Shown here: piece by piece, positions 5,182 through 49,033 of the stretch
Layout of the letters: each line of letters begins with the position of its first letter
How positions within the stretch are numbered: position 1 is the stretch's first letter
NCBI GenBank assembly: GCA_030271625.1
Contig: JARXKN010000001.1
Coordinates: 248,001 to 312,000 of the forward strand
DNA from: Patescibacteria group bacterium
GTDB lineage: Bacteria; Patescibacteriota; Saccharimonadia; Saccharimonadales; UBA4665
Reading direction: 5' to 3'
Length of the DNA stretch: 64,000 bases
Program-made: the position numbers and the translations under genes
Notes under the pieces: generated by a model
The model's input: only the letters and a program-made list of their open reading frames with translations
The model's database searches: none
What the model was told of the DNA's origin: nothing

Positions 5182-5780
5182 GACTTGGCTCCTTGATTAA
5201 CAAACAAGAACTGGTTGTTGCCGTTAAACAGGGCTCGTAAGGTAACAGTACAGGGGTAAACTACCGCCTTATCTTGTTCTTTGGGCGTCGTACAGCTGAT
5301 AGTCACAATATCGGCTTTCGCAAAAATCTTGTTAGCTGAACTGCTCAAGTTAACTTGTACCTGCGAGGCGGTGCTGTAGTCTTTGGCATTGGCATTCAAA
5401 TCAAGGCCGCCAGTGGTACGATTGATGTTTAAACCGGCCAAGATTGAGCCCGGTGGCATGGCGGCGCCAATTTGGGTAATCAGCTTCGAAAACAAAACTT
5501 CACTGCCTAACACCTGAGTAGCTAACCGCAGACTGCTACTAATGTCTTTTACCTTCTGTTCGGTTTCGGTCAGTTTATCCTTGTCGAGGGTGGCTTTAGC
5601 GTCAGCTACCTGATGATGATAACTGTTAACTTGTTGCTGCAAATCGAGCAGGCCAAAGGTAACTAAGGCTCCAACACCAACTAACACTAAGCTAAGGGCA
5701 ATTAACCAGCTACGCAAGCTGACGTTACGTCGAGCGTAGCGATAACTAGCTTTGGCTTGCGGCGGCAGCAGGTTAATCAT
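5178..5780 (-). CDS. pilN: PilN-like type IV pilus assembly protein
   Basis: A 200-residue protein that begins M-I-N-L-L-P, the conserved N-terminal motif of PilN that docks into PilM. A transmembrane helix follows at about 27-48, then a coiled coil (50-90) and a periplasmic-type domain. Its start ATG overlaps the TGA of pilM, and it overlaps pilO by four bases, so pilM-N-O should be translationally coupled. Confidence 0.88.
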   Translation of the reverse strand: MINLLPPQAKASYRYARRNVSLRSWLIALSLVLVGVGALVTFGLLDLQQQVNSYHHQVADAKATLDKDKLTETEQKVKDISSSLRLATQVLGSEVLFSKLITQIGAAMPPGSILAGLNINRTTGGLDLNANAKDYSTASQVQVNLSSSANKIFAKADIVTISCTTPKEQDKAVVYPCTVTLRALFNGNNQFLFVNQGAKS

Positions 5781-6886
5781 TCTTGGATCACCTTTCGGGG
5801 ATTAGCCAGGCACAGGCCGGCTACGGTAGCGTACATTGGCTTATCAGCTTCGCTCGGTGGCTGCAGGCCCTTGTAGTTCAAATAGTGCCACGGGTTAGTG
5901 TGACGAACAGCCAAACGCAGGATATTTGTTAGATAGTCGCTTAGACCGGGCATATTGGCGCCACCACCAAGGGTAATAATCTGTTGGATAGGTCGTTCAG
6001 AGCCATAGCGCTCTTCATGGTAGCGCATCATGCGGCGGATTTCTTTAATTAATTCACCAAGGATTGGCGACAAGGCTTGGGTGATTTCGGCTTGACGACG
6101 GCTCACGCCTAGCCCGTAACGGGTTTTTATCAGACCAGCTTCTGGCTGAGTAACATTAAGCTTGTTCTGAATAATATTGGTAAAGGTTTCACCGCCGGCC
6201 TGGACCGTACCGGTTACTAAAATATGGCCATCGTAAATACTAATATCGGCTGACCGCGAGCCAAAGTCGATAATTACTGTTGGTACATCGCTTTGATCAT
6301 CTAACGAGAACAAGCGGCCCGACGAGCTAAGCGTCGGCTCGATTAAGACCGGTTCTAAACCTAATATGTGAGCGAGTTCCATGTACGAATCAACAATAGT
6401 TTTCGGCACCGCCACAGCGAACAGTTCGGTGTTTTCAGCCGTCTGCTTGGTGACTTCATAGTCGAGGTACAAATCTTCTAGCGGCATAGATACATATTGC
6501 TCGGCCTCTAGTTCAACCGCGTTCACGAGCTCGGTATTTTTTAGCTTCGGCAGCTCGAGTGAACGGGTAAATGTCCGGTAAGCGGGAATCGCTAGGGCGA
6601 CGCGATGGGTCGTGATGTTACCAATCAGGTGTTGATCAAATAAGTCACGTGCCGCTTTGGCGATAACCTCGTGCTGGATAATCACACCATCTTCAGTAGC
6701 AGTGCGGTCAAAGGTCGTAAAGCCGTAACCGATAACCTGCGGCAGCTTATCAACTTTGCCGTTAATTCGCACCGCTGGTTGACTAACCTGCATGACTTTT
6801 AACGATGACGGGCCAATATCCAGGCCAAAAACTGGCTTATCACGGAAGAAATTTGGTGTTTTTGTAGTTTTGTTCATGTTGCCCAT
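5777..6886 (-). CDS. pilM: PilM, actin-like type IV pilus ATPase
   Basis: A 369-residue protein of the FtsA/PilM actin fold. Phosphate 1 is G-L-D-I-G-P-S-S-L-K near 20-30, phosphate 2 is I-D-F-G-S-R-S-A-D near 208-216, and the adenosine motif is L-G-G-G-A-N-M-P-G near 310-318. PilM binds the N-terminus of PilN on the inner side of the membrane. The first ATG is used here; a second in-frame ATG three codons later is also possible. A TATACT box lies at 6910-6915 on the minus strand. Confidence 0.92.
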   Translation of the reverse strand: MGNMNKTTKTPNFFRDKPVFGLDIGPSSLKVMQVSQPAVRINGKVDKLPQVIGYGFTTFDRTATEDGVIIQHEVIAKAARDLFDQHLIGNITTHRVALAIPAYRTFTRSLELPKLKNTELVNAVELEAEQYVSMPLEDLYLDYEVTKQTAENTELFAVAVPKTIVDSYMELAHILGLEPVLIEPTLSSSGRLFSLDDQSDVPTVIIDFGSRSADISIYDGHILVTGTVQAGGETFTNIIQNKLNVTQPEAGLIKTRYGLGVSRRQAEITQALSPILGELIKEIRRMMRYHEERYGSERPIQQIITLGGGANMPGLSDYLTNILRLAVRHTNPWHYLNYKGLQPPSEADKPMYATVAGLCLANPRKVIQE

Positions 6887-10290: not shown

Positions 10291-11565
10291 TTAGCCACCG
10301 ATGTTCTTGGAGAGATTGGCGATGGGGCCCATGACACTGGCGGCAATCAGTCCCACGGCGCCACCTAAGCCAACAATCATAATCGGCTCAATAATTGCCG
10401 CTAGACCATCTATTAGGACGGACACTTCTTCCTCGTAAAAATCGGCAATCTTAACCAGTACGACGTCGATTTGACCCGTCTCTTCGCCAACGAGGAGCAT
10501 CTGAGCCACAATTGGCGGGAAGTGCTCGCTACGGCTAATCGGGTCGCTTAACGGCTTACCGTTGCGAACTTCGTTGGCGGCATCTTTCAGTTCCTTTTCA
10601 ATAACCTTGTTGCCGAGGGCGGCACCAGTGACATCTAAGGCATCTAACACACTAACCCCAGCGCTCATGAGGGAGGCAAAGGTTCGCGAAAAGCGGGCCA
10701 CCGCAATCTTTAAAATCACCACCTTAACGACCGGAATTTTCAGTAGTAAACCATGGAATTGGTATTTACCTTTTTCAGTCTTAATGTAGCGCAAGACGTA
10801 GACCGTAATCGCAAATATAAACGCCATTATAAACAGCAGGTTAGGAATCTGATTAACGAGCGGGATGGCGTTCAGTAACGGGATGGCGGAAATAATCGTG
10901 TGATGGACACAGAAGTTACTGGCTTGCAGCAGGACTTCGGTATAGATTGGCAGCTTGGCGTTGGGGCCACCAAGATCCAGCAAGATTTTACCAATCTTGG
11001 GGACAATCAGCAGCATAATGCCAAAGAAGGCCAGGATGGTAATAACTAAAATTACAATTGGGTACATCATGGCGCTTTTAATCTTCTTACGGATACTGGC
11101 GTCCTGTTCAACCTGGGTGGCGAGGCGCTTCAGAATTTCGTCTAAGATACCGCCTTCTTCACCGGCTCGCACCATGTTCACGTAGACGTCACTAAATACA
11201 TTCGGGAACTTGGCAAAGGCGTCACCAAGCGGCATACCACTTTCGATATCCTTGGTGATGCTGGCTAAAACTTCACGCATGTATAAGTTGGGAGCATCAT
11301 TTTGGAGGGCCGATAACGATCGAGCCAGCGGCACGCCGGCACTAATCATGGTCGACAACTGCCGGGTAAAGATAACCAAATCGGCCAGCTTAATCTTCTT
11401 TTTACGCTTGCCGCCAGTTTTCCCTTTGCCCTTACTTAATTCAATCAGGACTGGTCGCACATTTTGTTTGTGGAGCAGGGTAAGCAGCGCACCGCGATTA
11501 ATGGCTTCGGCAGTACCAGAGATGGTGCGGCCGTCAGCGGTGGTAGCTTTATAGGTAAATAACAT
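10291..11565 (-). CDS. pilC: PilC, type IV pilus inner-membrane platform protein
   Basis: A 424-residue GspF/PilC family protein with two repeated T2SSF domains (about 70-195 and 275-400) and membrane segments near 172-195, 232-252 and 393-418. Typical sequence is present, such as F-T-R-Q-L-S-T-M-I-S-A-G-V-P-L in the first repeat and F-S-R-T-F-A-S-L-M-S-A-G-V-S in the second. It anchors the pilus fibre and couples the PilB motor to pilin insertion. Its start overlaps the pilB stop by one base. Confidence 0.95.
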   Translation of the reverse strand: MLFTYKATTADGRTISGTAEAINRGALLTLLHKQNVRPVLIELSKGKGKTGGKRKKKIKLADLVIFTRQLSTMISAGVPLARSLSALQNDAPNLYMREVLASITKDIESGMPLGDAFAKFPNVFSDVYVNMVRAGEEGGILDEILKRLATQVEQDASIRKKIKSAMMYPIVILVITILAFFGIMLLIVPKIGKILLDLGGPNAKLPIYTEVLLQASNFCVHHTIISAIPLLNAIPLVNQIPNLLFIMAFIFAITVYVLRYIKTEKGKYQFHGLLLKIPVVKVVILKIAVARFSRTFASLMSAGVSVLDALDVTGAALGNKVIEKELKDAANEVRNGKPLSDPISRSEHFPPIVAQMLLVGEETGQIDVVLVKIADFYEEEVSVLIDGLAAIIEPIMIVGLGGAVGLIAASVMGPIANLSKNIGG

Positions 11566-13370
11566 TATTGTTCCTGAGACGTAACACGTAAGATTTCTTC
11601 GATGGTGGTTTGACCACGGAGGGCTTTAATAAAGCCGTCGAGCTGCATCGTTAACATGCCTTCGGTAATGGCCGTCTTTTCTAGGTTCTCGGTTGTTGAG
11701 CCACTGACAATCAGGCTTTGGATGCCGGTAGAATTACTAAGCACTTCGTAAATGCCAATTCGGCCCTTGAAACCAGTATGATTACAGGCTTCACAGCCCT
11801 CGGTGTGTGGCTTAAATAATCGACTGATAGTGCTACTTGTACTGCTAAGGCTGTCAGTAGTGGCGCCTTTTCCGGTGCTAGAACGGCCAATCCCGTCTTC
11901 TAAAGCGACGCCTTCAAGTTGATGCATGGTTGCAATGCCGCCGTGCCGACTGAGCCGGAAGGTTTTATCTAGTTGCTTTAGAACCGCGGCGTCAGGTGCA
12001 TATTGTTCGCGGCAATCAACACACAAGCGGCGGACAAGTCGCTGAGCGACCACCACGCGCACGGTGCTGGCAATTAAGAATGGCTCGACGCCCATATCGA
12101 GTAACCGCGGTAGACAGGTGGCAGCGTTATTGGTGTGGAGGGTACTAAACACCAAGTGACCAGTTAAGGCGGCTTGGACGGCTAGGTCGGCAGTTTCGCC
12201 ATCGCGAATCTCGCCCACCATGATGATGTTCGGGTCTTGTCGTAACAGTGCGCGTAGGCCGTTCGTAAAGGTCATGCCCGCAATGGCGTTCACCTGTGTC
12301 TGGTTGGCGCCCACAATGTGATATTCCACCGGGTCTTCAACCGTCGAAATATTGACGTTTGGCGTGTTGAGGGAGCTTAAGACGCTAAACAGCGTCGTCG
12401 ACTTGCCTGAGCCGGTCGGACCGGTAACCAGCACCATGCCGTGCGGCTGAACAATGGCGTCTTTGAGGTGGATTAGGGCGGTGCCCCAGAAGCCTAAATC
12501 GGTAAAATCAGCGGCTTTCGTAGATTCGTTCAAGATACGCATAACGACTTTTTCACCGTCCAAAATTGGCAGCGTTGATACCCGCAGGGCGTACATCAGG
12601 CCACTAACTTCTACCTTAAAGCGACCGTCCTGTGGTGCGCGGTGCTCATCAATCTTTAAATTACTGAGGATTTTAATACGACTCACCAAGGCGCCAAGTA
12701 ATTTACGAGGCAGCTTATTTGCTTCCCGCAATAAGCCGTCGATACGGTAACGGACAACCACAAAATCTTCGCGCGGCTCAATGTGGATATCACTAGCACC
12801 GGCTTTAACTCCATATTCAATAATCAGATTTACGGTCTGCGCCACCGGTGAATCTTCGGCTAAATCGTTTTCGTCAACTTCTTCTTCGGCCTCGACTTCT
12901 TCGTTGCTGGCAATAACTTTGGTCAGTTCGCTGCTGATGTTACCGCGGTATTGGTCAAGGGCGCCACGCAGCAGGCTAGCGGTGGTGATGTGAATCTTAA
13001 GGTTGGTGCCCAGCTGTTTTTGCAGGAAATTAAGCGCTTGGATATCATCCGGATCTTCCATGGCCAGGAACTTGGTTTCGCCTTCGACCGCAAAAACTGC
13101 GGCGTTGTACTGACGGGCAATCCGTTCCGGCAAGAGCTTGAGAATGTCGTGATTTATTTCTTTGGCGTTTAGTTCGACAAAGGGAACTTCAATTTCGGCG
13201 GCATAGAGCTTAGTAAGTTCTTTTTCTGATAATAAATTGTTGCTGAGCACCAAGTCTTGCAGCGGTTTCTTCTCGATAACTTCTTGCTCACGGAGAGCCG
13301 TAATCTGTTCAGCCGAGAATTGCTCGCTATGATGCAGTAATTTTTCAACGAGGGAATCAGGGATACGCAT
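11565..13370 (-). CDS. pilB: PilB, type IV pilus extension ATPase
   Basis: A 601-residue GspE/PilB ATPase. The N-terminal MshEN-like domain covers about 1-150. The core has the Asp box (D-I-H-I-E-P-R), Walker A G-P-T-G-S-G-K-S-T near 317-325, Walker B in I-I-M-V-G-E-I-R-D-G-E-T and a His box (T-G-H-L-V-F-S-T-L-H-T-N). Two C-x-x-C pairs near 450 and 525 form the zinc site of PilB proteins. It drives pilus extension. No PilT retraction ATPase is seen here. A ribosome binding site AGAGGTGG precedes the start. Confidence 0.96.
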   Translation of the reverse strand: MRIPDSLVEKLLHHSEQFSAEQITALREQEVIEKKPLQDLVLSNNLLSEKELTKLYAAEIEVPFVELNAKEINHDILKLLPERIARQYNAAVFAVEGETKFLAMEDPDDIQALNFLQKQLGTNLKIHITTASLLRGALDQYRGNISSELTKVIASNEEVEAEEEVDENDLAEDSPVAQTVNLIIEYGVKAGASDIHIEPREDFVVVRYRIDGLLREANKLPRKLLGALVSRIKILSNLKIDEHRAPQDGRFKVEVSGLMYALRVSTLPILDGEKVVMRILNESTKAADFTDLGFWGTALIHLKDAIVQPHGMVLVTGPTGSGKSTTLFSVLSSLNTPNVNISTVEDPVEYHIVGANQTQVNAIAGMTFTNGLRALLRQDPNIIMVGEIRDGETADLAVQAALTGHLVFSTLHTNNAATCLPRLLDMGVEPFLIASTVRVVVAQRLVRRLCVDCREQYAPDAAVLKQLDKTFRLSRHGGIATMHQLEGVALEDGIGRSSTGKGATTDSLSSTSSTISRLFKPHTEGCEACNHTGFKGRIGIYEVLSNSTGIQSLIVSGSTTENLEKTAITEGMLTMQLDGFIKALRGQTTIEEILRVTSQEQ

Positions 13371-18492: not shown

Positions 18493-19623
18493 ATGTCTGA
18501 TCGACTACGACTCGGTCTCGATAACCCAGCTTTCCAGGGGCGGCTACGTCAGCCTCAAGCTCGGTTTGTGACGCCGGTGCGCGGGCCGGTCAGACAGCCT
18601 TTTGGTCATCCGGTGGCGCTGCCGGCAATTCCAAAGCCGGTTGCAATTCAGGCTCAGCCTACACCAGCCACCCTGTTGCGACCGATGATGACAGATGTGC
18701 GTCCGGTCACTAAGCTCAAGCCAGTAGCAGTAGCAAAACCAGTCGTACACCCAGCTCAACAACTGCCAATAAACGACTTTAAAGTGATTGCGCCGCAGCC
18801 GTTTGCTCAGCCGGCCCATCCTAAACAACAGCAGTCGGTAGTATTGCGTCGTCAGGCGGTACGTAATCCGTCCGCACCTTTGTTAGCCCAGGCCCAAGCT
18901 CAAGCCCAAGCTCAAGCGTCAGCGCCAGCTAAGCACAGCAAACTCCAATACGCTTTAGTTGGCATGGCCGTGTTTGTGTTCGGCATTGGGGTATTTGTTA
19001 GCTTAATTACCCTCAAGACAAACAAGGCCGCCGTCACTCAAGTAGCGGCGATATCAGCTCACGCCCAGCAGGCCGATGGAACTGCTGCTCCCGATTCACC
19101 ACCAACTGAGACCAAGCCAACTACTAGCACCATGGCCAGCTATACGGTCGCGCCGGACTTGCCACGTCAAATTATTATTCCTAAGTTGTATGTCTATGCT
19201 CGGGTACGTCCGATGGGCGTAAATACCAAGAACGAACTCCAAGCTCCTGGCAATATCTTTGATGCCGGCTGGTACAACGCCAGTGCCAAGCCCGGCAGTG
19301 GCGCTGGTAGTGGGGCGATGCTGATTGACGGCCATGTTCACGGCCCTAGTTTGCCGGGCGTCTTTGCGAAGATCAAAACATTAGTCGCTGGTGACGCCAT
19401 GCAGATTGTCCGGGGTGATGGAAAAATATTTAACTACAGCGTGGTAAAGACCCAGAATGTTGAGGCTGCTAACTTAGATATCGGAGCCGCTTTAACCGCA
19501 GCTACCCCCGGTAAAGCAGCCCTTAATCTGATTACTTGTGGCGGCCCATACGACAAAGCCAGTGGCGAATACACCCAGCGGACCATTGTCTATGCCGTGC
19601 AGTCCGATTTGACCGCCAATTAG
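18493..19623 (+). CDS. Sortase family transpeptidase with long proline-rich N-terminus
   Basis: A 376-residue protein. Residues 1-150 are cytoplasmic-type, rich in Pro, Gln, Ala and Val, with an Ala-Gln repeat near 133-142. A transmembrane helix lies at about 153-177, then a linker, and a sortase domain from about 215. The catalytic residues are visible: His near 281 (I-D-G-H), Cys near 349 (L-I-T-C-G-G) and Arg near 363 (T-Q-R). It resembles class E/F sortases of actinobacteria. No LPXTG-type substrate was found among the surface proteins in this window. A ribosome site AAAGGA lies 6 bases before the start. Confidence 0.87.
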   Translation: MSDRLRLGLDNPAFQGRLRQPQARFVTPVRGPVRQPFGHPVALPAIPKPVAIQAQPTPATLLRPMMTDVRPVTKLKPVAVAKPVVHPAQQLPINDFKVIAPQPFAQPAHPKQQQSVVLRRQAVRNPSAPLLAQAQAQAQAQASAPAKHSKLQYALVGMAVFVFGIGVFVSLITLKTNKAAVTQVAAISAHAQQADGTAAPDSPPTETKPTTSTMASYTVAPDLPRQIIIPKLYVYARVRPMGVNTKNELQAPGNIFDAGWYNASAKPGSGAGSGAMLIDGHVHGPSLPGVFAKIKTLVAGDAMQIVRGDGKIFNYSVVKTQNVEAANLDIGAALTAATPGKAALNLITCGGPYDKASGEYTQRTIVYAVQSDLTAN

Positions 19624-33699: not shown

Positions 33700-35220
33700 C
33701 TACATTTCATGGAGGACAGTAATGGAAGCGCCCAACGAGTTGAGCCGCTCGGCTAAGTCTTCATAACCACGCTGAATGGTATAGATGTTACGCAGCATGC
33801 TGATGCCATTGGCGGCCATCATGCCAATTAATAGCAACGAAGCCGGACGCAGGGCGGGTGGGCAGACCACGTCGGCGGCGCTGAACTTTGTAGCGCCTGT
33901 AACATAGACGCGGTGCGGATCGGCTAGCTCAATTTGGGAGCCAATCTTAGTCATCTCGGTGTAATAAATAGCCCGATTCTCGTACATCCAGTCATGGATG
34001 AGGGTGCGGCCTTTTGCGACGCTGGCAATCGGCACGAAGTAGGGCAGATTATCGGCATTTAGACCGGGAAATGGCAGGGAGTGGATCTTGTCGGTCAGTG
34101 CTTTGAGCTTGCCGTTGTGTTTATGAATAGTGAGGTCGACTAAGTCGGTTTGACCATTAACGGCTTTAAAGCGAGGGGTGGTGTCATAACTGAGGCCCAT
34201 CTTGCGGAGCTTTAATAATTCCATCGACATAAACTCGATTGGTACCCGCTTAATCGTAATTTCCGAGTTAGTCGTTACAGCCGCGGCCGTGAAAAACATT
34301 GCCTCGATTGGGTCTTCGCTCGGCGCGTAGGTAATGTTCTTCTTTATAAACGGTACGCCGCGGACGGCTAGTTTGGTGGTGCCAACACCATCAATTTTGA
34401 CGCCCAGTTTTTGCAAGAAGAAACACATTTCCTGAACCATGTAGTTGGCGCTAGCAAATTCTATAAAGACCTCGCCGTCGGTGCGAGCCGCTGCCATCAG
34501 GACGTTTTCGGTCACGGTGTCGCCGGGTTCATAGAGTGTAATGCGGTCGGCAACTTTAGGGTCAGAAGTAATATCATAAAAGCCAGTCGTGGCAACAATA
34601 CTGACACCCAATTCTTCTAGGGCGTAAAAGTGCGGCGCTACAGTACGGGTGCCGAGTTTACAACCGCCAGCGTAGGGAATTTTAAATGACGCAAAGTCAT
34701 GCATCAAGGGGCCAATCAACATGAGCACTGAGCGGGTTTTGCGAGCCGCTACGGCATCAAGTTTTTCGAGCTGTAATTTTTCGGGCCGGCGGATCTCTAG
34801 GTCGTTACCAGGTAACCACTTTACTGACACACCAATGCTCTCTAAGACTTCGATAATACGGTAGACCTCTTCAATGCGAGGGAAAGCTTTGAAGTGAGTG
34901 ACGCCATAATTTAGTAAGCTGGCGCAGAGCAGGGAAACGGCGGCATTTTTGCTAGTTTTCAGTGTTATGTCGCCGCTTAGCTCATGACCACCTTCGACGC
35001 GCAAATTAACAGCGCCGCTACTAACAGTGATCAGTTGTTTGTTTAAAACATCACTAATGCGACCCAGTGTTTCCAGACTTAAATTTTGGCGGCCGTGTTC
35101 CATGCGGTTAACTGCCGACTGGCTAGTACTGAGACGACGTGCGAACTCAGCTTGTGTCAGCCCGCGTTCCTGGCGGATTTGGGCAATCAGGTGGCCAATT
35201 TTTTCGTTAGTATCGTTCAT
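33700..35220 (-). CDS. murA: HTH (XRE-type) domain fused to UDP-GlcNAc enolpyruvyl transferase (MurA)
   Basis: A 506-residue fusion. Residues 6-66 form a Cro/CI-type helix-turn-helix: I-R-Q-E-R-G-L-T-Q-A-E-F-A, then S-Q-S-A-V-N-R-M-E. From about residue 70 the protein is a full MurA: K-N-A-A near 90, the catalytic Cys in G-G-C-K-L-G-T-R near 185, and the C-terminal R-A-S-L-L-L near 455. MurA makes the first committed step of peptidoglycan synthesis. Plain MurA is about 420 residues, so the HTH is an added domain. It may bind DNA, possibly its own promoter, where TATAAT lies 11 bases before the ATG. Confidence 0.92.
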   Translation of the reverse strand: MNDTNEKIGHLIAQIRQERGLTQAEFARRLSTSQSAVNRMEHGRQNLSLETLGRISDVLNKQLITVSSGAVNLRVEGGHELSGDITLKTSKNAAVSLLCASLLNYGVTHFKAFPRIEEVYRIIEVLESIGVSVKWLPGNDLEIRRPEKLQLEKLDAVAARKTRSVLMLIGPLMHDFASFKIPYAGGCKLGTRTVAPHFYALEELGVSIVATTGFYDITSDPKVADRITLYEPGDTVTENVLMAAARTDGEVFIEFASANYMVQEMCFFLQKLGVKIDGVGTTKLAVRGVPFIKKNITYAPSEDPIEAMFFTAAAVTTNSEITIKRVPIEFMSMELLKLRKMGLSYDTTPRFKAVNGQTDLVDLTIHKHNGKLKALTDKIHSLPFPGLNADNLPYFVPIASVAKGRTLIHDWMYENRAIYYTEMTKIGSQIELADPHRVYVTGATKFSAADVVCPPALRPASLLLIGMMAANGISMLRNIYTIQRGYEDLAERLNSLGASITVLHEM

Positions 35221-35269: not shown

Positions 35270-36271
35270 CTAATCTACAACGAAGTAATCAAAGGCAAAT
35301 GAGGCACCTGCCGGCGGAGCAGTCGAGTCACAAATGCTAAAGCCACTAGTAGTCCGAGTGACGTAATAGTCAATCGCCCCGCCATCGGCGCCGACTGGTG
35401 TAATCGTGACATGCGGCACGCTATTAAACTTTTGAGCAAAATTGATGTTGGCAAAACAGCCAGCCGGCGCGCCACTGCCGGTGTTGATTGTAACGGTGCC
35501 GCTAGTATCAGAACCGCTGACGCTGGCCGACCCACCACTGCCGAGAGACGGACCATTAGTGCGGTTGGGGGTAGGTCCACCGGCAGTTATGTGATGCGTC
35601 AACACTAAGTCACCATTAAGCTGCAAAGTCGAGACGGTAATTTGGGGTGCTGACAAGGGTCCGCTAAAAGTACCACCACCATTAACTTGGAGGCTCTTCT
35701 GAATTGTCAGGCCGCCTTGGACGGCGGTATCACCGGCAATTGCCAAGTTTTTGCTAACCTGGACATCGCTTAAATTTGTCTTACCGGTCACGGTCAAACC
35801 AGATAAGGTCACCGGGCCACTGACTTGGATGCCACCAGCTACTTCTAAGGTGTCGCGCACCAGGACTTTGCCGGCAAATACCGCGTTTGATTGGACGCTC
35901 AAAACTTGCTTCGGATCACCAACCGTGGCGTCGGTATTAGCTAGCTGGTCAAGGGCTTTTTTATCCAAAGTTTGCGAGGAAATTGTCGTCGTTTGGGCGG
36001 CTTTCTTGCTGGCAAAGTAGGTTATGACCGTAACGCCGACGGCTATCAAAATAATAAAAACGAACAATAAGAGGTATAAATTAAAGCGAGCTATTCGGTC
36101 GCGAAAGGTCTTCTTGGGCAGCTTATAGGGTTGCGCCGGAGCACCACCACCAAGTTTGGCGCCACCGGTAGCATCAATGACATTTGTTTCAGGGGTTTCT
36201 AGGGTCTCTAGAGAATCAATGTCTTCGTCTGAATCGGCGGGGCTGCTACCCGGAGGTTTGTTTGTGTCCAT
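35270..36271 (-). CDS. Membrane-anchored beta-solenoid fibre with a tail-fibre-like tip
   Basis: A 333-residue protein. It has an acidic cytoplasmic N-terminus (1-60), one transmembrane helix (about 63-86), a coiled region, then about ten short Val/Leu/Gly-rich beta repeats (about 130-235) as in bactofilins or phage fibres. A Gly/Ser linker leads to a C-terminal domain (about 255-333) with the pattern F-x-x-x-F-x-x-V-P-H-V and a final S-F-A-F-D-Y-F-V-V, as in phage tail-fibre tip domains. It is likely to project from the cell as an adhesin. The ATG at 36271 is preferred over an upstream in-frame one because TATAAG lies 10 bases before it. Confidence 0.72.
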   Translation of the reverse strand: MDTNKPPGSSPADSDEDIDSLETLETPETNVIDATGGAKLGGGAPAQPYKLPKKTFRDRIARFNLYLLLFVFIILIAVGVTVITYFASKKAAQTTTISSQTLDKKALDQLANTDATVGDPKQVLSVQSNAVFAGKVLVRDTLEVAGGIQVSGPVTLSGLTVTGKTNLSDVQVSKNLAIAGDTAVQGGLTIQKSLQVNGGGTFSGPLSAPQITVSTLQLNGDLVLTHHITAGGPTPNRTNGPSLGSGGSASVSGSDTSGTVTINTGSGAPAGCFANINFAQKFNSVPHVTITPVGADGGAIDYYVTRTTSGFSICDSTAPPAGASFAFDYFVVD

Positions 36272-36357
36272 AGTGCTTTGTCTTATAGTACTAGAAATTG
36301 GCGATAAGCGTAAACAGATTGCCATTTAGGCCCGCGTGCTTCAAAATGATAGCTGTA

Positions 36358-37095
36358 ATGCGTGCCTGGAAACAAACATGGAACATTAGTTTAGTGAGTC
36401 TTATAGTCGGGCTGTTAGTGCCGGCCACAGTTCTAGCCGCCCAATCGGCTTCACCAACCTACCAAGTTAACGAAGTCTTCTTTGGTAGTGGAGGTGAGCT
36501 TAATGCCTGTTCGACTAGCTACTGTACTAAGCAGTCTGCCGGAGAATCGGTCGTCGGGCGCGCCGCTAGCTCAAATTTTCAGGCCCAAGGCGGTTTTAAT
36601 ACCGAACGTCAGCCGTACATTGAATTTACGGTCGGCACGACTAATCTCGACCTAGGTACGCTGACGCCGACTTCTACCAAAGTGGCAACGGCCAACTTTA
36701 CGGTTAAGGCGTACTTAGCTCATGGGTACGTCGTAGTAAATGCTTCCGATCCACCAACTAACGGTGCCTATCTTATGAAAAACTTGACCATTCCTTCGGC
36801 GCCCCAGGTGGGAGTCGAGCAATTTGGCATCAACTTGGTGGCCAATACCCAACCGCAGCTCTTCGGCGCTAATCCAACCCAAAGTCCCGATAGTACTTTT
36901 GGTTATGGGCAGGTGACCGCTGATTACAGTAGTCCAAACCTCTATAAATACGTTAAGGGTGACGTTATTGCGCAGTCATACCTAAGTAGTAGCTTCACTA
37001 ACTACACAATTTCGTATCTTTTTAACATTAGCAATGTCACGCCAGGCGGCACGTATCTCCTGCAACATGACCTAGTTGCGACGGCGACATTTTAG
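36358..37095 (+). CDS. Secreted surface protein, WxL-like paralogue 1
   Basis: A 245-residue protein with a signal peptide (about 1-27, V-L-A cleavage). The mature part is beta-rich. It shares its C-terminal module with the protein at 38489: F-G-I-N-L-x-A-N, then Y-x-x-P-N-L-Y-K-Y-V-x-G-D, and the ending P-G-G-T-Y-L-L with a last A-T-A-T-F. The ending is reminiscent of WxL-domain C-termini (G-x-Y-x-x-x-x-x-W-T-L). No membrane anchor is seen, so it is probably held non-covalently. Start: a weak AATGAT box lies 7 bases before ATG 36358; ATG 36346 is possible. Confidence 0.7.
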   Translation: MRAWKQTWNISLVSLIVGLLVPATVLAAQSASPTYQVNEVFFGSGGELNACSTSYCTKQSAGESVVGRAASSNFQAQGGFNTERQPYIEFTVGTTNLDLGTLTPTSTKVATANFTVKAYLAHGYVVVNASDPPTNGAYLMKNLTIPSAPQVGVEQFGINLVANTQPQLFGANPTQSPDSTFGYGQVTADYSSPNLYKYVKGDVIAQSYLSSSFTNYTISYLFNISNVTPGGTYLLQHDLVATATF

Positions 37096-37120
37096 CTGTG
37101 GATAACAGGCTTGACAGCTA

Positions 37121-37150
37121 TTGCACAGGTCAGCATAAGCGTGATAAGAT
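37121..37150 (+). promoter_or_regulatory. Possible promoter of the surface gene at 37210
   Basis: TTGCAC (37121-37126) and TAAGAT (37145-37150) spaced by 18 bases, in the 114-base gap after the first paralogue. The leader would be about 50 bases. Confidence 0.35.
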
Positions 37151-37209
37151 GAGCGCACTAACCTTAAATAAACACAAACAAATACGAAATACTCAAGGTA
37201 TAAATAACA

Positions 37210-38475
37210 ATGGTAACTAAGTTTCGCCTGCTACAGCGAATTGCCTATACGATGGCAGCTATTGCTGTATTGGTAGGTGTTGTCTACCCGGCGTTTAAGC
37301 CAAAGCTGGCTTCGGCTGCACAGCTGACGACGCGCAGCATTACGCTTAGTGACTCTGGACAGAGTGGGGGCACCATTACGACTGGCGTAGGTAGCGGTAC
37401 TAACGTGGTCTATAAATTTGCCTTTACAACCACTCAGGCGGCTCAAAGTCTGGTTATCGATTTTTGTAACACCAGTCCATTAATCGGCGACACTTGCACG
37501 GCTCCAGTTGGTATGGATGCCAGCGCGGCCGTACTTGCTGGCATAACGGGTAACATCACAAATGCCGGCTGGACGGTTACCGCTACTGCCTCGCAAATAA
37601 AACTGGCTAAGGGCAGCGGTTCGGCAGCTACTTCTGGCGTACAAAGCTTTACGCTTTCTGGTATCACCAACCCGGCTTCGGTGGTGTATGGCGGCAGTCC
37701 TAAGCCGGTCGGTACTTTTTACGGTCGTATTTACACCTACGCCGATAGCACCTATGGCAGTTCATCGACAGCCTATGTAAGCCCGGCAAGTCCCGGTAAT
37801 TTTATGGACTATGGTGGCATTGCGCTCAGCACTAACCAGATAATTACCATTACCGCCAAAGTTCAGGAGCAACTAACCTTCTGTGTGTCGGGAGCAGCCC
37901 AAGCAACCTGGACGACTACTAATGATTGTAGTGATAGTCAAGCGGCCGTGGCGCCAGCCCTGATACTGGGGCACGGAGCACCGACGGCAATCTTAGATAA
38001 CAGTGCCACCGATACCGGAACGGTCTACTCCCAAATCTCTACCAATGCCGCTTACGGAGCGGCTATTGCCATGAGAAACAGTAATACCACTTGTGGTGGT
38101 TTAAGTGCTGATGGCGGTACTACCTGTGGGATACCTGCTAACAATACTGGTGCTGCAACACCGGCGCCAATTACCACTGGTACGGCCGCTTTCGGGTTGT
38201 ATGTCACCGATGGCGCGCTAGGAACGGGGGGTATCGGTGCTGTCTTGGCCGACCTCAATTACAACGACGGCACCCCGACTCATTACGGCATGGATACCGA
38301 GACGACGACCGACACGGGAAGTGTTACGGGCACCTACGGTGACCGAGTCGCCTACACCACCGCGCCGTGTTACCGAATTAATAACTCGTATACCTTCGCA
38401 GCTACCGCCTCTCTCACCACCCCGGCTGGTATTTACACGGCTAACATGGACCTAATTGCGACCGGCACTTTTTAA
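37210..38475 (+). CDS. Secreted surface protein, WxL-like paralogue 2
   Basis: A 421-residue protein with a signal peptide (about 1-36). The N-terminal module (about 38-200) matches that of the protein at 38489: F-C-N-T-S-P, D-T-C-T-A-P-x-G and a later N-I-T-N-type strand. A middle region with I-T-I-T-A-K-V-Q-E-Q-L-T-F-C introduces the second half. It ends P-A-G-I-Y-T-A-N-M-D-L-I-A-T-G-T-F, the same closing pattern as paralogue 1. Six or more Cys occur in pairs. It is secreted, has no C-terminal anchor and is probably a structural or adhesive wall protein. Confidence 0.7.
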   Translation: MVTKFRLLQRIAYTMAAIAVLVGVVYPAFKPKLASAAQLTTRSITLSDSGQSGGTITTGVGSGTNVVYKFAFTTTQAAQSLVIDFCNTSPLIGDTCTAPVGMDASAAVLAGITGNITNAGWTVTATASQIKLAKGSGSAATSGVQSFTLSGITNPASVVYGGSPKPVGTFYGRIYTYADSTYGSSSTAYVSPASPGNFMDYGGIALSTNQIITITAKVQEQLTFCVSGAAQATWTTTNDCSDSQAAVAPALILGHGAPTAILDNSATDTGTVYSQISTNAAYGAAIAMRNSNTTCGGLSADGGTTCGIPANNTGAATPAPITTGTAAFGLYVTDGALGTGGIGAVLADLNYNDGTPTHYGMDTETTTDTGSVTGTYGDRVAYTTAPCYRINNSYTFAATASLTTPAGIYTANMDLIATGTF

Positions 38476-38488
38476 CGGCTGCAAATGA

Positions 38489-39550
38489 ATGAGTCGACAA
38501 TTTGCCTTCTTGCTCCGCCACCGCTGGCAATCAGTTGCGACCATTGGCGTCGCCCTACTCCTTAGTTGGCAACTAATATCTCCGGCCGCCTACGGGGCCC
38601 AATTAGGCAACCGTGTCCTACAGATAAGTAGTAGTGACAAGAGTGCAAAAACAACCTATCGGCTCAGCTTCGATCTGAGTACCGCTGGCCTGTTAGGCTC
38701 TATGCGCATTCAGTTTTGTAGTAATTCACCAATATTCCCGGATCCGTGTACTGCCCCGAGTGGCTTTTCGGTTACCGGAGCGGCTTTGTCAGATCAGTCT
38801 GGCCAAATCGGCTTTTCAAAAAGTGGTTCGTCGACAGCTAACGCAATCGTTCTAACTCGACCAGCTCTGCCAAATACGGTGGGTCCGGTCAGCTACACCT
38901 TTACTAATGTTACGAATCCAGATGTTATAGGGTCGTACTATGTGCGGGCGCAAACCTATGCCTCTACCGATGCCAGCGGTCCAGCTAGTGATTACGGAGG
39001 CATTGGTTTTGCGATTAATAACAATCTTACTATCAGTGCCGAAGTTCCACCCTATTTAATATTTTGTACTGGCATTACTATCCCGACACTGAACTGTAAT
39101 AGTGCCACTGGCGATTACATAAATTTTGGTGAGCTCAGCTCAGCTCGGCCCAGTGTTGGCACCTCACAGATTTTGTCTTCAACCAATGCGAAAAATGGCT
39201 ACAATGTGACGCTTACCGGTACCACTTTAACGAGTGGTAATAACGCCATTGATCCAATTGTTACTGGTGACGTATCACGTCCAGGTACACCACAGTTTGG
39301 ACTTAACTTACGGGCTAACGCTTCACCCAGCAGTGGCGATGAACCAAATGGGCCAGGCAGTGGCACGGCCCTGATTGGCTATAACACACCTAACTTCTTC
39401 CGTTTTGTGCCAGGTGACAAAATCATTGCTTCACCCAAACCGGATGAGATGCGTCGTTTTACTACCAGTTACTTAGTTAATATTCCAAAAACTCAGTCGC
39501 CTGGCGTCTATGTTAGTACGGTCACCTATATTTGCCTCGGAAACTTCTAG
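38489..39550 (+). CDS. Secreted surface protein, WxL-like paralogue 3
   Basis: A 353-residue protein with an N-terminal signal region (about 1-36). It combines the N-terminal module of paralogue 2 (F-C-S-N-S-P, D-P-C-T-A-P-S-G) with the C-terminal module of paralogue 1 (F-G-L-N-L-R-A-N, T-P-N-F-F-R-F-V-x-G-D), ending P-G-V-Y-V-S-T-V and C-L-G-N-F. It starts 13 bases after the previous stop, so the two are likely one transcript. It seems to be the central member of the family. Confidence 0.72.
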   Translation: MSRQFAFLLRHRWQSVATIGVALLLSWQLISPAAYGAQLGNRVLQISSSDKSAKTTYRLSFDLSTAGLLGSMRIQFCSNSPIFPDPCTAPSGFSVTGAALSDQSGQIGFSKSGSSTANAIVLTRPALPNTVGPVSYTFTNVTNPDVIGSYYVRAQTYASTDASGPASDYGGIGFAINNNLTISAEVPPYLIFCTGITIPTLNCNSATGDYINFGELSSARPSVGTSQILSSTNAKNGYNVTLTGTTLTSGNNAIDPIVTGDVSRPGTPQFGLNLRANASPSSGDEPNGPGSGTALIGYNTPNFFRFVPGDKIIASPKPDEMRRFTTSYLVNIPKTQSPGVYVSTVTYICLGNF

Positions 39551-39622
39551 GGTGCTGCCCCTGTTTTGGAATAAGCCGCAAATTTGTTACTATGTAAGAA
39601 ATAATCATAAGAGGAAACAGAC

Positions 39623-40618
39623 ATGTTTAAAATAAAATCCGGTCGGCTGGCAATCGTGCTAGCAGCAGTTGCCGGATTACTTATTTTGAACGTACCTGGA
39701 GTAGCCTTAGCGGCCGGCGGTAACGGCCTACGCGTAACGCCAGTCCGAACGCCCGATGATCTGACTATTAAGCCCGGTGCCTCAAAAACCATTTACGTAA
39801 CGGTCACTAACATCACGACTACGCCAGCGAACTTACGGGTTATCATTAATGACTTTACAGCCAGCAGTGACGAGAGTGGCCAACCAGCCCTACTGCTAAC
39901 GCCGGGGCAGTTTGCTCCCAAGCACAGCTTAAAACGCTTTGTTAAAGATATTCCGAATTTTACCTTACAGCCCGGACAGCAAAAAACAATCTCAATCCCA
40001 ATTGCCATTCCAGCTGATGCCTCAGGTGGCGGTTACTACGGTACGGTCCGCTTTGCGCCAGCTGGCAGTGGCGGCCAAGACAAGACCGTCACGCTCGCCG
40101 GTAGTGTCGGTTCGCTTATTTTGGTTCGGGTGCCAGGAGACGTTAAAGATCAGCTGAGTATCGCCAGCTTTGACGCCCGACAGAATGGAACCACCAAGAG
40201 CTTATTTTTTAGCAATAAGAAAATAAGTTCGGTTATTCGATTCCAAAATGAGGGTAATATCCAGGAACAACCGTTTGGTAAGATTTTGCTCAAAGACCGC
40301 TCTAATAAGATTCTTGGTGAGTATGAGATTAACGATGTAGAGCCAAGAGGCAACGTCTTGCCAGATACCATCCGTAAATTTGAAACGCCAATTGATAAGA
40401 TTGGCAAATTTGGAATTTATAAGCTGGTTGGTAACTTTGGTTATGGTAGTAACGGCCAGCTATTAAGTGCCAGTACGACTATCTACGTAATTCCGTTCAT
40501 CTTTATTATTGGCTTCGTGGTGTTGGTAGCGTTACTGCTGTTCCTGATATTTGGCTTACCAAAATTAATTCGAGCCTACAACCAACGTATCATCAATCAA
40601 GCCGGGCGACGGCGCTAG
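39623..40618 (+). CDS. DUF916-like (WxL-interacting) membrane-anchored protein
   Basis: A 331-residue protein with a signal peptide (about 1-31), an Ig-like DUF916-type domain (about 35-150) that opens L-R-V-T-P-V-R and continues K-P-G-A-S-K-T-I-Y-V-T-V-T-N, a second beta domain (about 160-280), one transmembrane helix (about 287-312) and a basic tail. This is the layout of WxL-interacting proteins (CscA) of Firmicutes, which bind peptidoglycan and WxL proteins. It follows three secreted paralogues that could be its partners. An AGAGGAAA ribosome site lies upstream. Confidence 0.78.
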   Translation: MFKIKSGRLAIVLAAVAGLLILNVPGVALAAGGNGLRVTPVRTPDDLTIKPGASKTIYVTVTNITTTPANLRVIINDFTASSDESGQPALLLTPGQFAPKHSLKRFVKDIPNFTLQPGQQKTISIPIAIPADASGGGYYGTVRFAPAGSGGQDKTVTLAGSVGSLILVRVPGDVKDQLSIASFDARQNGTTKSLFFSNKKISSVIRFQNEGNIQEQPFGKILLKDRSNKILGEYEINDVEPRGNVLPDTIRKFETPIDKIGKFGIYKLVGNFGYGSNGQLLSASTTIYVIPFIFIIGFVVLVALLLFLIFGLPKLIRAYNQRIINQAGRRR

Positions 40619-40663
40619 CGAGCCCTAGTCGTTAAGCGGCGCGATGAACAGGCGACACAGCTT

Positions 40664-41635
40664 ATGAAACAAAAAAAGATTCTTAGCACCACACTAGCAG
40701 TGCTGCTCTGTCTGGGTATTAGTATGGTTGCCAGTAGTAGGGCCCAGGCTGCTATTACGCCGCCGGGTCCAGCTTCTGGCTCGGTTGGTCTTGAAGGGAC
40801 AATTTCCTCACCGCCGCCCAAGCAGGGGGCAACCATCAGTTCCCCGGGAAATGGCTCGAATTTTACGGCCGTTCCGATTACCGTCAACGGCATCTGTCCG
40901 ACCGGTCTGCTCGTTAAGCTGTTTTCGAATAATGTCTTTGTCGGCTCGGTCCAATGTACCAACGGCAGTTACTCAATTCAGGTCGACCTGTTCAGTGGCC
41001 AAAACCAGTTGGTAGCTCGGGTGTACGATGCACTCGATCAAGCCGGCCCTGATTCCAATACCGTAACGGTGACCTACACCGATGCTAAGTTCTTGCAGTT
41101 CGGGACCTCGGTATCGTTGTCTAGTGTCTATGCTCGGCGGGGCGCAAATCCGGGCGAAGTTTTGGAATGGCCAATTGTACTTAGTGGCGGCACCGGGCCC
41201 TACGCCATCAGCGTTGACTGGGGCGATGGCTCGCCCACCGACCTAACCAGTCAGACCTTTGCCGGTAACTTTACCATTAAGCATACCTACAAAGCCGCAG
41301 GTGTCTATAAGATTATTATTAAAGCCACCGACAAAAATGGCAGCGAGGCCTTCTTACAGTTAGTGGGCGTGGCTAATGGCAAAGTTGGCCAAACAGGGGT
41401 TGGCACTAATTCCAAGTCATCAACGACCCGCATAATTATCATCTGGTGGCCTATGTTGCTGTTGCTGCCGTTAATTCCAGCCGCCTTTTGGGCGGGCCAA
41501 CGCAATGAACTGTATGTACTTCGCAAAAAGTTAGAGCGTACCCGCGATGGTTCGATAGTGCCCTCGGCTATATCGAAAACTACTGACACCACGGTAATAG
41601 ATACTACAACTACCACGACACCTACGGCCGCCTAG
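40664..41635 (+). CDS. Membrane-anchored Ig-like/PKD protein A
   Basis: A 323-residue protein: signal peptide (about 1-28), a Pro/Gly linker, an Ig-like domain (about 55-140) with I-T-V-N-G-I-C-P and N-Q-L-V-A-R-V-Y-D, a PKD domain (about 150-235) with the classic S-V-D-W-G-D-G-S and H-T-Y-K-A-A-G-V-Y, one transmembrane helix (about 258-280) and a Thr-rich tail. It is a paralogue of the protein at 46532. PKD domains mediate protein or sugar contacts outside the cell. It closes the surface cluster. Confidence 0.85.
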   Translation: MKQKKILSTTLAVLLCLGISMVASSRAQAAITPPGPASGSVGLEGTISSPPPKQGATISSPGNGSNFTAVPITVNGICPTGLLVKLFSNNVFVGSVQCTNGSYSIQVDLFSGQNQLVARVYDALDQAGPDSNTVTVTYTDAKFLQFGTSVSLSSVYARRGANPGEVLEWPIVLSGGTGPYAISVDWGDGSPTDLTSQTFAGNFTIKHTYKAAGVYKIIIKATDKNGSEAFLQLVGVANGKVGQTGVGTNSKSSTTRIIIIWWPMLLLLPLIPAAFWAGQRNELYVLRKKLERTRDGSIVPSAISKTTDTTVIDTTTTTTPTAA

Positions 41636-46531: not shown

Positions 46532-47671
46532 ATGAAGCATACTACTAAAAAGCGTTCGTCGTCGTCCCGGCAGCAAGCTGTTGCCAAAGGCCGCCTGACT
46601 ATCATCCATCACCGACATACCGGACACTTAGTTCATAAACGGCATAGCTCATACCCAGTATTGGCGATGCTGCTGCTTTGTATTGGCGTTTTGATCAGTA
46701 GTAGCACCCATTCCGCCTTAGCCGTCACGCTAACGGATTCGGCTAGCTATGTTGTCACTGCCAGTTTGCCAGGACCAGCGCCAGCCACGGCGGCTACCAT
46801 TTCGGCGCCGACTAACAATGCTCATTTTAAGACGGCTACTATTACCGTTAGCGGTAGCTGTCCGCTTAACACCTATGTAGAAATCAGCCGTAACGGCGTG
46901 GCCAGTGGCGTGGCACTGTGTTCCGCGGCCGGTGATTACAGCCTCCAGATTAGCCTGTTTAATGGCGCCAATGCCTTGCAGGCCCAGGTCTATAGCCAAA
47001 CTGATGTGCCGGGTCCTGCCTCCCCGGTTGTAACGGTTTATTTTGACCCGCCGCTAACGACTAATCCGAACCCGACTGGCAACCCCGCCACTACTGGTAG
47101 TGGCGCCACGACGCCGGCCGGCAATGCCGCTAATACCAGCCCAGCCGTCTCCAATGGAACAGTTTCAGGAGCGCCGGCTGAGCCCTTAGTTTTAAAAAGT
47201 CAGTTTCGCTACTTGGGCCATTACACTGGACAAACAACTAACTACCAGTTTGTAGTAGAGGGCGGCACCGCACCGTATGCCTTATCGATTGACTGGGGTG
47301 ATGGCACCCAAAAACAAATCACTGTCACCGCTAACGGCGCTTTTGCTGTCAGCCACACCTACCAAAAGGCTGGTGGTTATCACGGCAGTTATCGGATTAA
47401 AGCTACCGTCGTTGACGGGGCTGGCAATCAAGCCATCTTGCAGTTACTGGCAATTATTAACGATCCACCAACGGTGCCATTTCCTGGCTCGACTGGTAGC
47501 ACGGGGGGAGGAACCTACACCGACACTATCGGGCAGTATATCCAAGGCTTACTAAAATACATTTGGCCCACCTATGGTGTAACGGTTCTGATGCTGGCCT
47601 CGTTTTGGCTCGGTGAATGGCGCGAGCTGAAAATATTGCGTCCTAGAACCCGCCGTATCAGACACGTTTAA
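46532..47671 (+). CDS. Membrane-anchored Ig-like/PKD protein B
   Basis: A 379-residue paralogue of the protein at 40664. The strongly basic N-terminus (1-38) is longer than in the paralogue, followed by a hydrophobic signal or anchor (about 42-65), an Ig-like domain (about 85-175) with I-T-V-S-G-S-C-P, a Gly/Thr/Ala linker, a PKD domain (about 220-305) with S-I-D-W-G-D-G-T and H-T-Y-Q-K-A-G, and a C-terminal transmembrane helix (about 342-362) with a basic tail. It lies before the FtsA-like gene. TATGAT at 46499-46504 may be its -10 box. Confidence 0.83.
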   Translation: MKHTTKKRSSSSRQQAVAKGRLTIIHHRHTGHLVHKRHSSYPVLAMLLLCIGVLISSSTHSALAVTLTDSASYVVTASLPGPAPATAATISAPTNNAHFKTATITVSGSCPLNTYVEISRNGVASGVALCSAAGDYSLQISLFNGANALQAQVYSQTDVPGPASPVVTVYFDPPLTTNPNPTGNPATTGSGATTPAGNAANTSPAVSNGTVSGAPAEPLVLKSQFRYLGHYTGQTTNYQFVVEGGTAPYALSIDWGDGTQKQITVTANGAFAVSHTYQKAGGYHGSYRIKATVVDGAGNQAILQLLAIINDPPTVPFPGSTGSTGGGTYTDTIGQYIQGLLKYIWPTYGVTVLMLASFWLGEWRELKILRPRTRRIRHV

Positions 47672-47685
47672 GCGAACGGCTATGG

Positions 47686-47691
47686 TAAAAT
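47686..47691 (+). promoter_or_regulatory. -10 box that decides the FtsA-like start
   Basis: TAAAAT ends one base before an ATG at 47693 but 7 bases before the in-frame ATG at 47699. By the leaderless spacing seen elsewhere, 47699 is the real start. Confidence 0.45.
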
Positions 47692-47698
47692 AATGCAT

Positions 47699-49033
47699 AT
47701 GCTTGAAAAACTAAAAAGTGCCGGTGCGCTGGCTGCTACGCAGGCTCGCAAAGGTGCCCGCAAAGCCACCGCTACGGTTAAAGCCAAAACTGCTAAATCA
47801 GATGAGCAATACATTGTAGCGCTTGATATTGGTACTGAATTTGTTAAGGCGCTGGTTGGCAAAGTCTCCAAGGACAGTGGTGAGATTACGGTAATTGGCG
47901 TTGGCCGAGCCCACCAATCACTGTCGGATATGCAAGCTGGCGCGATAGCCGACATCGCCAGTGTGGTCAGTAACTGCGATAAAGCCTTAAACGACGCCGA
48001 AACCCAGGCTGGGGTGAGTGCACGCACCGCCATCCTCGGTATTGCCGGAGAACTAGTAAAAGGCACTACCACCACAGTGCGCGTGGCCCGTAAAACGCCG
48101 ACCAAACCACTTGATATTGCTGAAATGGAAAAGATTATCGCCCTGGTGCAAGAACGGGCTGAAGGCAAAGCCAAACAACAGTTAGCCTGGGAGCTTGGTG
48201 GTAAGAGTGTGGAAGTCCGGCTCGTGAACAGCGCCCTGGTTAGTATCGAGATAGACGGCTATCCAGTGACTAATCCAATTGGTTTTCAAGGTAAAGACGT
48301 GGTTATCCAGCTCTATACGGCTTTTGCGCCATTAATACATATTGGAGCCTTGGAAAAGACCGCCCAGGAGCTCGACCTCGATCTGCTAGCGGTGGCCGCT
48401 GAACCATTTGCCGTTGCCCGAGCTGTTATTGGCAACAATCCTAATCAAAACCTCAGTGCTATCTTGATGGACGTCGGTGGCGGTACAACTGATATTGCCG
48501 TCGTGAATGATGGTGGGGTGCAGGGAACCAAGATGTTTGGCATTGGTGGCCGTGCTTATACTCGAGCTATCGAACGTGACTTGAGTGTCGAGTTTGAGCA
48601 AGCCGAACTATTAAAGATTGGTCTCAGCACTAATAAAGTTCCCAGCCAAAAGCGCCCGGCTATCGAAGCCGCGCTTGGAAAGACAGCTGATACCTGGTTG
48701 AGCGGCATTGAATTAGCGCTGGGGGAGTTTACCAAATTAGATCATCTACCACACCGCCTATTTTTATGCGGCGGTGGGTCGTCACTTGACCTGTTGATGG
48801 ACCGCCTGGAGCAAACTGATTGGTATAAAGCCTTGCCTTTTACTCGTAAACCGAGTGTGCACTACATCCGTCCGGAGCAAATTGCTGGTATTACTGACAT
48901 TACCGGCTTAGTCGAGGACCACACCTATATTACGGCGCTCGGTCTACTGCGCGTCGGCATGGATACATTGCAATTTACCGGTACCGGTAATGGTGGTATA
49001 AAAGAAAAAATTGATAAGATGTTAAGCGTATGA
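47699..49033 (+). CDS. FtsA/PilM-like actin-fold ATPase
   Basis: A 444-residue protein. After a basic N-terminus (1-35) comes the actin-fold phosphate 1 loop L-D-I-G-T-E near 40-45, an SHS2-like insert, phosphate 2 M-D-V-G-G-G-T-T-D near 257-265, and the adenosine motif L-C-G-G-G-S-S near 357-363. It is most like FtsA, which tethers FtsZ to the membrane, but lacks a clear C-terminal amphipathic helix and ftsZ is not adjacent. A PilM-like role is the alternative; a separate PilM is at 5777-6886. Its TGA overlaps the ATG of the next gene. Confidence 0.78.
   Translation: MLEKLKSAGALAATQARKGARKATATVKAKTAKSDEQYIVALDIGTEFVKALVGKVSKDSGEITVIGVGRAHQSLSDMQAGAIADIASVVSNCDKALNDAETQAGVSARTAILGIAGELVKGTTTTVRVARKTPTKPLDIAEMEKIIALVQERAEGKAKQQLAWELGGKSVEVRLVNSALVSIEIDGYPVTNPIGFQGKDVVIQLYTAFAPLIHIGALEKTAQELDLDLLAVAAEPFAVARAVIGNNPNQNLSAILMDVGGGTTDIAVVNDGGVQGTKMFGIGGRAYTRAIERDLSVEFEQAELLKIGLSTNKVPSQKRPAIEAALGKTADTWLSGIELALGEFTKLDHLPHRLFLCGGGSSLDLLMDRLEQTDWYKALPFTRKPSVHYIRPEQIAGITDITGLVEDHTYITALGLLRVGMDTLQFTGTGNGGIKEKIDKMLSV

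Follow-up and report, generated by a model that had tools for sequence, protein, structure and literature searches.

Gene families of a predicted Pam pilus operon with a WxLIP homologue in Saccharibacteria

Introduction

In chaperone-usher systems the pilins contain a conserved glycine near position -14 and an aromatic residue near the C-terminus, both found in the strand which pairs with the chaperone. For the WxL proteins of Firmicutes and their partner WxLIP, a hairpin of WxLIP was predicted to enter a gap in WxL, completing its sandwich (PMC10599100). The title of PDB entry 9i25 describes WxLIP bound to a long WxL protein. Published work on the grip of CPR epibionts on their hosts has centred on type IV pili, by which Saccharibacteria bind their hosts (PMC12206443). 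A further type of pilus, the CPR-type Pam pilus, is represented in NCBIfam release 20 (June 2026) by the models NF058578, NF058579, and NF058581.

Here we describe a locus which, by its gene families, is assigned as a Saccharibacterial Pam pilus operon (36298-41635). The operon also encodes a membrane protein homologous to WxLIP.

Organization of the Locus

The window, the whole 64-kb stretch of DNA that was analyzed, sits in a 1.15 Mb genome. The nearest relatives of its PamR protein in named genomes belong to Candidatus Saccharibacteria, with identity of up to 82%, which agrees with the original prediction of a CPR bacterium. The same prediction described a six-gene surface cluster with three secreted paralogues sharing a C-terminal motif, a DUF916-like and a PKD protein with membrane helices, and a divergent anchored fibre, and each of these elements was recovered. 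All six reading frames are present, with FIB on the minus strand followed by PamT, P2, P3, WxLIP, and PamR on the plus strand. By sequence, every plus-strand product opens with a signal-peptide-like stretch. Judged by position only, the start of FIB is more likely 36271 than 36325 and that of PamT more likely 36346 or 36358 than 36298; with these corrected starts the two genes therefore do not overlap. The divergent intergenic region between them (36272-36345) likely contains both promoters, based on the sequence and the ORF starts.

FIB (35270-36271, minus strand) combines an N-terminal hydrophobic membrane stretch with a bactofilin-like beta-helix, the latter at 24 bits to PF04519, below the cut-off of 27.9. 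No NCBIfam family gave a significant match to it. On the same strand, a MurA gene (33700-35220) encodes an N-terminal XRE-type helix-turn-helix domain at residues 7-63, and orthologues of this MurA-HTH protein with equal or similar length were found in three of the compared loci (L068, L070, and L074).

Assignment to the Pam Family

The NCBIfam cut-offs are 240 bits for PamT and 300 bits for PamR, both equivalog models, and 55 bits for the domain model Pam_pilin_C. PamT (36346-37095, plus strand), the secreted pilin-domain protein encoded by the first gene of the operon, matched NF058579 at 291.7 bits; it gave no match in Pfam and is without the N-terminal Ig domain. PamR (40664-41635, plus strand), a secreted protein with a C-terminal membrane helix, matched NF058578 at 423 bits, and its PKD domain passed PF00801 in Pfam (24.3 against 23.5 bits). 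Pam_pilin_C was matched by PamT at 144 bits and at 164 bits by P3 (38489-39550, plus strand), a pilin with two Ig-like domains located directly 5' of the WxLIP gene. P2 (37210-38475, plus strand), which has a long N-terminal part, scored 32 bits, below the cut-off, and was recovered at 4e-27 by an iterative profile for which the C-terminal domains of PamT and P3 were used. This identifies the three secreted genes as true paralogues. The AlphaFold2 model of P3 (pLDDT 92) is almost entirely beta once past the signal peptide.

The whole genome contains three Pam_pilin_C matches, all of them inside the cluster. Across the phylum, the family was detected in 103 of 380 sampled genomes (27 above the cut-off); all 14 control genomes were negative. 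Of 60 relatives examined, 45 have PamR, 34 of these above the cut-off. Searching PDB sequences with profiles built from the pilins or from their C-terminal domain gave no match. No PamR relatives were found in the phage collection, and in PHROGs the matches were weak throughout and fell in families whose function is unknown. Similarities to the designed Pizza6 propellers were set aside as repeat artefacts, and the adjoining NCBIfam accessions NF058577 and NF058580 were unrelated on inspection. A second PamR-like protein, which at 212 bits falls short of the 300-bit cut-off, is encoded in the window at 46532-49033 (plus strand), directly 5' of an FtsA/PilM-like gene, and this pair is syntenic in several relatives.

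The Pilin C-Terminus and the Absence of a Sorting Signal

The common C-terminal motif of the paralogues was traced through 121 pilin-domain proteins, those whose domain extends to the protein end. The last residue is Phe or Tyr in 119 of them, and 115 have the pattern G-x-Y, followed after 10-12 residues by a terminal Phe, Tyr, Leu, or Ile. Among other ORFs this pattern occurred once in 834, and it is not due to chance. Conservation of the N-terminal strand of the pilins is merely average.

Two other ways of building a surface structure were considered. Five sortase genes occur in the genome, one of them within the window at 18493-19623 (plus strand), and would fit a covalent pilus or wall proteins assembled by sortase. 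This explanation is very improbable, however, as none of the three pilins has an LPXTG motif or a C-terminal membrane helix, their chains end on the conserved aromatic residue, and no sortase gene was seen in the conserved unit in the loci compared. The paralogues might instead be accessory pilins of a type IV pilus, given that PilM (5777-6886, minus strand) and an assembly ATPase (11565-13370, minus strand) are encoded in the window and that Saccharibacteria attach to hosts by such pili (PMC12206443). Their signal peptides are of the Sec type by sequence, the mature proteins are almost beta-only, and no type IV pilin match was obtained in Pfam or NCBIfam, leaving this explanation with hardly any probability.

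The Paralogues Are Not WxL Proteins

The original prediction had regarded the three paralogues as WxL-like proteins, and this part of it has to be given up. None of 42 pilins matched PF13731, nor did anything in the source genome. The C-terminal domains of PamT, P2, and P3 contain no Trp, so that the dual W-x-L motif is absent, and any W-x-[LVI] was found in just 11 of 121 pilin relatives. Alignment of pilins to WxL by hhalign gave 1.4% with Firmicutes sequences and 20-52% when Patescibacterial WxL sequences were added, compared with 64% for a control pair, the N-domain and C-domain of the pilins. On the WxL profile, the pilins scored slightly higher than shuffled sequence and no higher than WxLIP. 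A WxL identity finds no support in Pfam, the W-x-L motif, hhalign, or the score distributions; the absence of the 9i25 WxL chain among the 50 fold matches listed for P3 carries no weight against a possible distant homology.

True WxL matches do exist in the phylum, in 10 of 362 genomes. Where their surroundings were read, these genes mostly lie near WxLIP genes, as in loci L174, L175, L181, L157, L158, L161, and L162. The order in L174 is WxL, WxLIP, and long WxL, as in the Firmicutes cluster.

A WxLIP Homologue with the Shape of a Fimbrial Chaperone

The protein encoded at 39623-40618 (plus strand) has a signal peptide, a DUF916-like domain, a second Ig-like domain, and a membrane helix. It passed PF06030 in Pfam (30.6 against 27.3 bits) and matched no NCBIfam model. 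Of its aligned relatives, 44 of 51 matched PF06030 at E <= 1. Against a reference set of 11 Firmicutes WxLIP proteins from annotated plasmid loci, hhalign returned 99.2% (E 7e-20). The 264 aligned columns span the two Ig domains as well as the membrane helix. Every other pair in that comparison reached 54% or less. DUF3324 was not among the Pfam matches listed for the second Ig domain. The region of this domain lies within the hhalign span, and the fold aligns with 9i25_C over 33-291.

The AlphaFold2 model (pLDDT 91.5) has a low-confidence stretch at 151-160 and a long C-terminal helix at 292-330, which holds the hydrophobic membrane stretch and aligns with the Firmicutes helix. Its best fold match is the solved WxLIP of Enterococcus faecium (9i25_C; Z 15.4 over 234 residues). 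The next matches are the chaperones CfaA, CsuC, Caf1M, and FimC, with Z of about 11 across both domains. RbmA, Wzt, and transglutaminase-type domains score like these chaperones, and the chaperone likeness alone is therefore a likeness of fold only. By profile and predicted structure, then, the protein is assigned as a homologue of WxLIP that is anchored in the membrane and has, with its two Ig domains, the shape of a fimbrial chaperone. The DUF916-like protein with a membrane helix that had been predicted here is thus found both by profile and by fold.

Conservation of the Neighbourhood

In the loci compared, 49 of 52 WxLIP genes immediately follow a pilin gene of the same orientation. These loci had been picked by pilin or PamR matches, and a second set was therefore drawn by WxLIP matches alone. 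In that set, too, most WxLIP genes have a pilin or WxL gene next to them; L168, L172, L182, and L183 are among the exceptions. A scan of named genomes placed WxLIP directly after a pilin in 82 of 93, a count in which loci ending before the pilin are scored as failures. The predicted conservation of the neighbourhood in related genomes was thus found, as was the DUF916 likeness. Several loci contain two or three pilin-WxLIP pairs, and often there are three or more pilins per WxLIP. In closer relatives MnmA, often with AlaS, lies downstream; at about 74% identity, compared with 50-60% for the pilus genes, they are probably mere neighbours. The genes of the predicted pilus are conserved across Saccharibacteria, and their pairing with a chaperone-like anchor that also occurs in Firmicutes is phylum-wide.

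FIB co-occurs with the Pam operon in Saccharibacteria. Its profile was found in 21 loci and adjoins PamT in all of them except L080, which has a partial match further off, at the edge of the locus. All 12 named-genome loci with enough flank contain FIB, and it was not found in loci from outside the Saccharibacterial class.

A static scaffold, in which the secreted proteins are held one to one on surface WxLIP and form no polymer, has been proposed for the WxL clusters of Firmicutes. The strong WxLIP homology would fit such an arrangement here, as would the true WxL-WxLIP pairs of the same arrangement in related genomes. It nevertheless appears rather unlikely for this operon, where the partners are Pam pilins and not WxL proteins, there are often three or more pilins to each WxLIP, and pilus chaperones are among the folds that WxLIP resembles. 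Since NCBIfam assigns the paralogues to the Pam pilins, a pilus is a likelier product than a scaffold bound to the wall. As for the earlier proposal that the DUF916-like protein holds the secreted proteins at the surface, the anchor is a true WxLIP homologue and the proposal still stands to that extent; its partners are Pam pilins, not the WxL proteins that had been envisaged.

Proposed Assembly of the Pilus

Our favoured reading, which we hold with moderate confidence, is that in the Pam operon WxLIP, anchored in the membrane, acts without an usher as both a PapD-like chaperone and the base, and that the pilins polymerize by strand donation. The three pilins would be exported via Sec, with the C-terminal Ig-like domain presumably incomplete on leaving the membrane. 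Each would then be captured by WxLIP, which may lend a beta strand from a hairpin at about residues 136-170, the conserved aromatic C-terminus of the pilin sitting in the WxLIP cleft. In the transfer from pilin to pilin, the WxLIP strand would be swapped for the N-terminal strand of the next subunit. PamT is probably the tip of the resulting fibre and P2 and P3 its shaft, and WxLIP with PamR may form the base. Neither usher nor sortase would be needed, since an outer membrane is thought to be absent. The fibre probably aids the hold of the epibiont on its host.

Strand donation is suggested by the hairpin insertion predicted in Firmicutes, the title of 9i25, the 151-160 loop (which we regard as the counterpart of the Firmicutes hairpin), the lack of an usher (no PF00577 match in the genome), and the lack of LPXTG. 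Counting against the reading as a whole are the five sortases, the score of P2 below the cut-off, the average conservation of the N-terminal strand, and the scores of RbmA and other two-Ig-domain proteins, which equal those of the chaperones in the fold comparison. If true, a second, simpler pilus would offer a route of assembly that needs neither usher nor sortase and can be tested. The complete genome on record as Saccharibacteria bacterium TM7i (L271) also contains the operon; we take TM7i to be a cultivated strain, and testing of this route is therefore practical.

Comparison with Known Systems

One likeness considered is that to the orphan pond-water fibres TLP-1a and TLP-1b (9ikj and 9ikk). 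The C-terminal domain of P3 (39029-39550) aligns with them over 130 residues at a Z of about 8, which is usual among unrelated beta folds, with 15% identity and no sequence match; kinship was rejected, this being a weak fold match only. Chaperone-usher pili (CfaA, CsuC, Caf1M, and FimC) share with the locus the two-domain fold of the chaperone, at a Z of about 11, as well as a conserved Gly and a terminal aromatic residue in the pilins. They differ in that WxLIP is membrane-anchored here and the genome has no usher, and the likeness shown is one of fold.

The Csc/WxL clusters of Firmicutes are alike in placing WxLIP directly after a secreted protein with its C-terminal domain last. In the present locus the partner is instead a Pam pilin, with several per WxLIP, and PamR and FIB are added. 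With the CPR-type Pam pilus the locus has in common PamT and PamR above the cut-offs, a domain score above the threshold in two of its three pilins, and a gene order found in relatives; WxLIP and FIB were matched by no NCBIfam model. We tentatively raise the possibility, which we consider doubtful, that CPR Pam pilins and Firmicutes WxL proteins represent two lineages within a single class of usher-less pili, in which a membrane-anchored, PapD-shaped WxLIP serves as chaperone and base, subunits join by donor-strand exchange, and FIB is an unnamed further part in Saccharibacteria.
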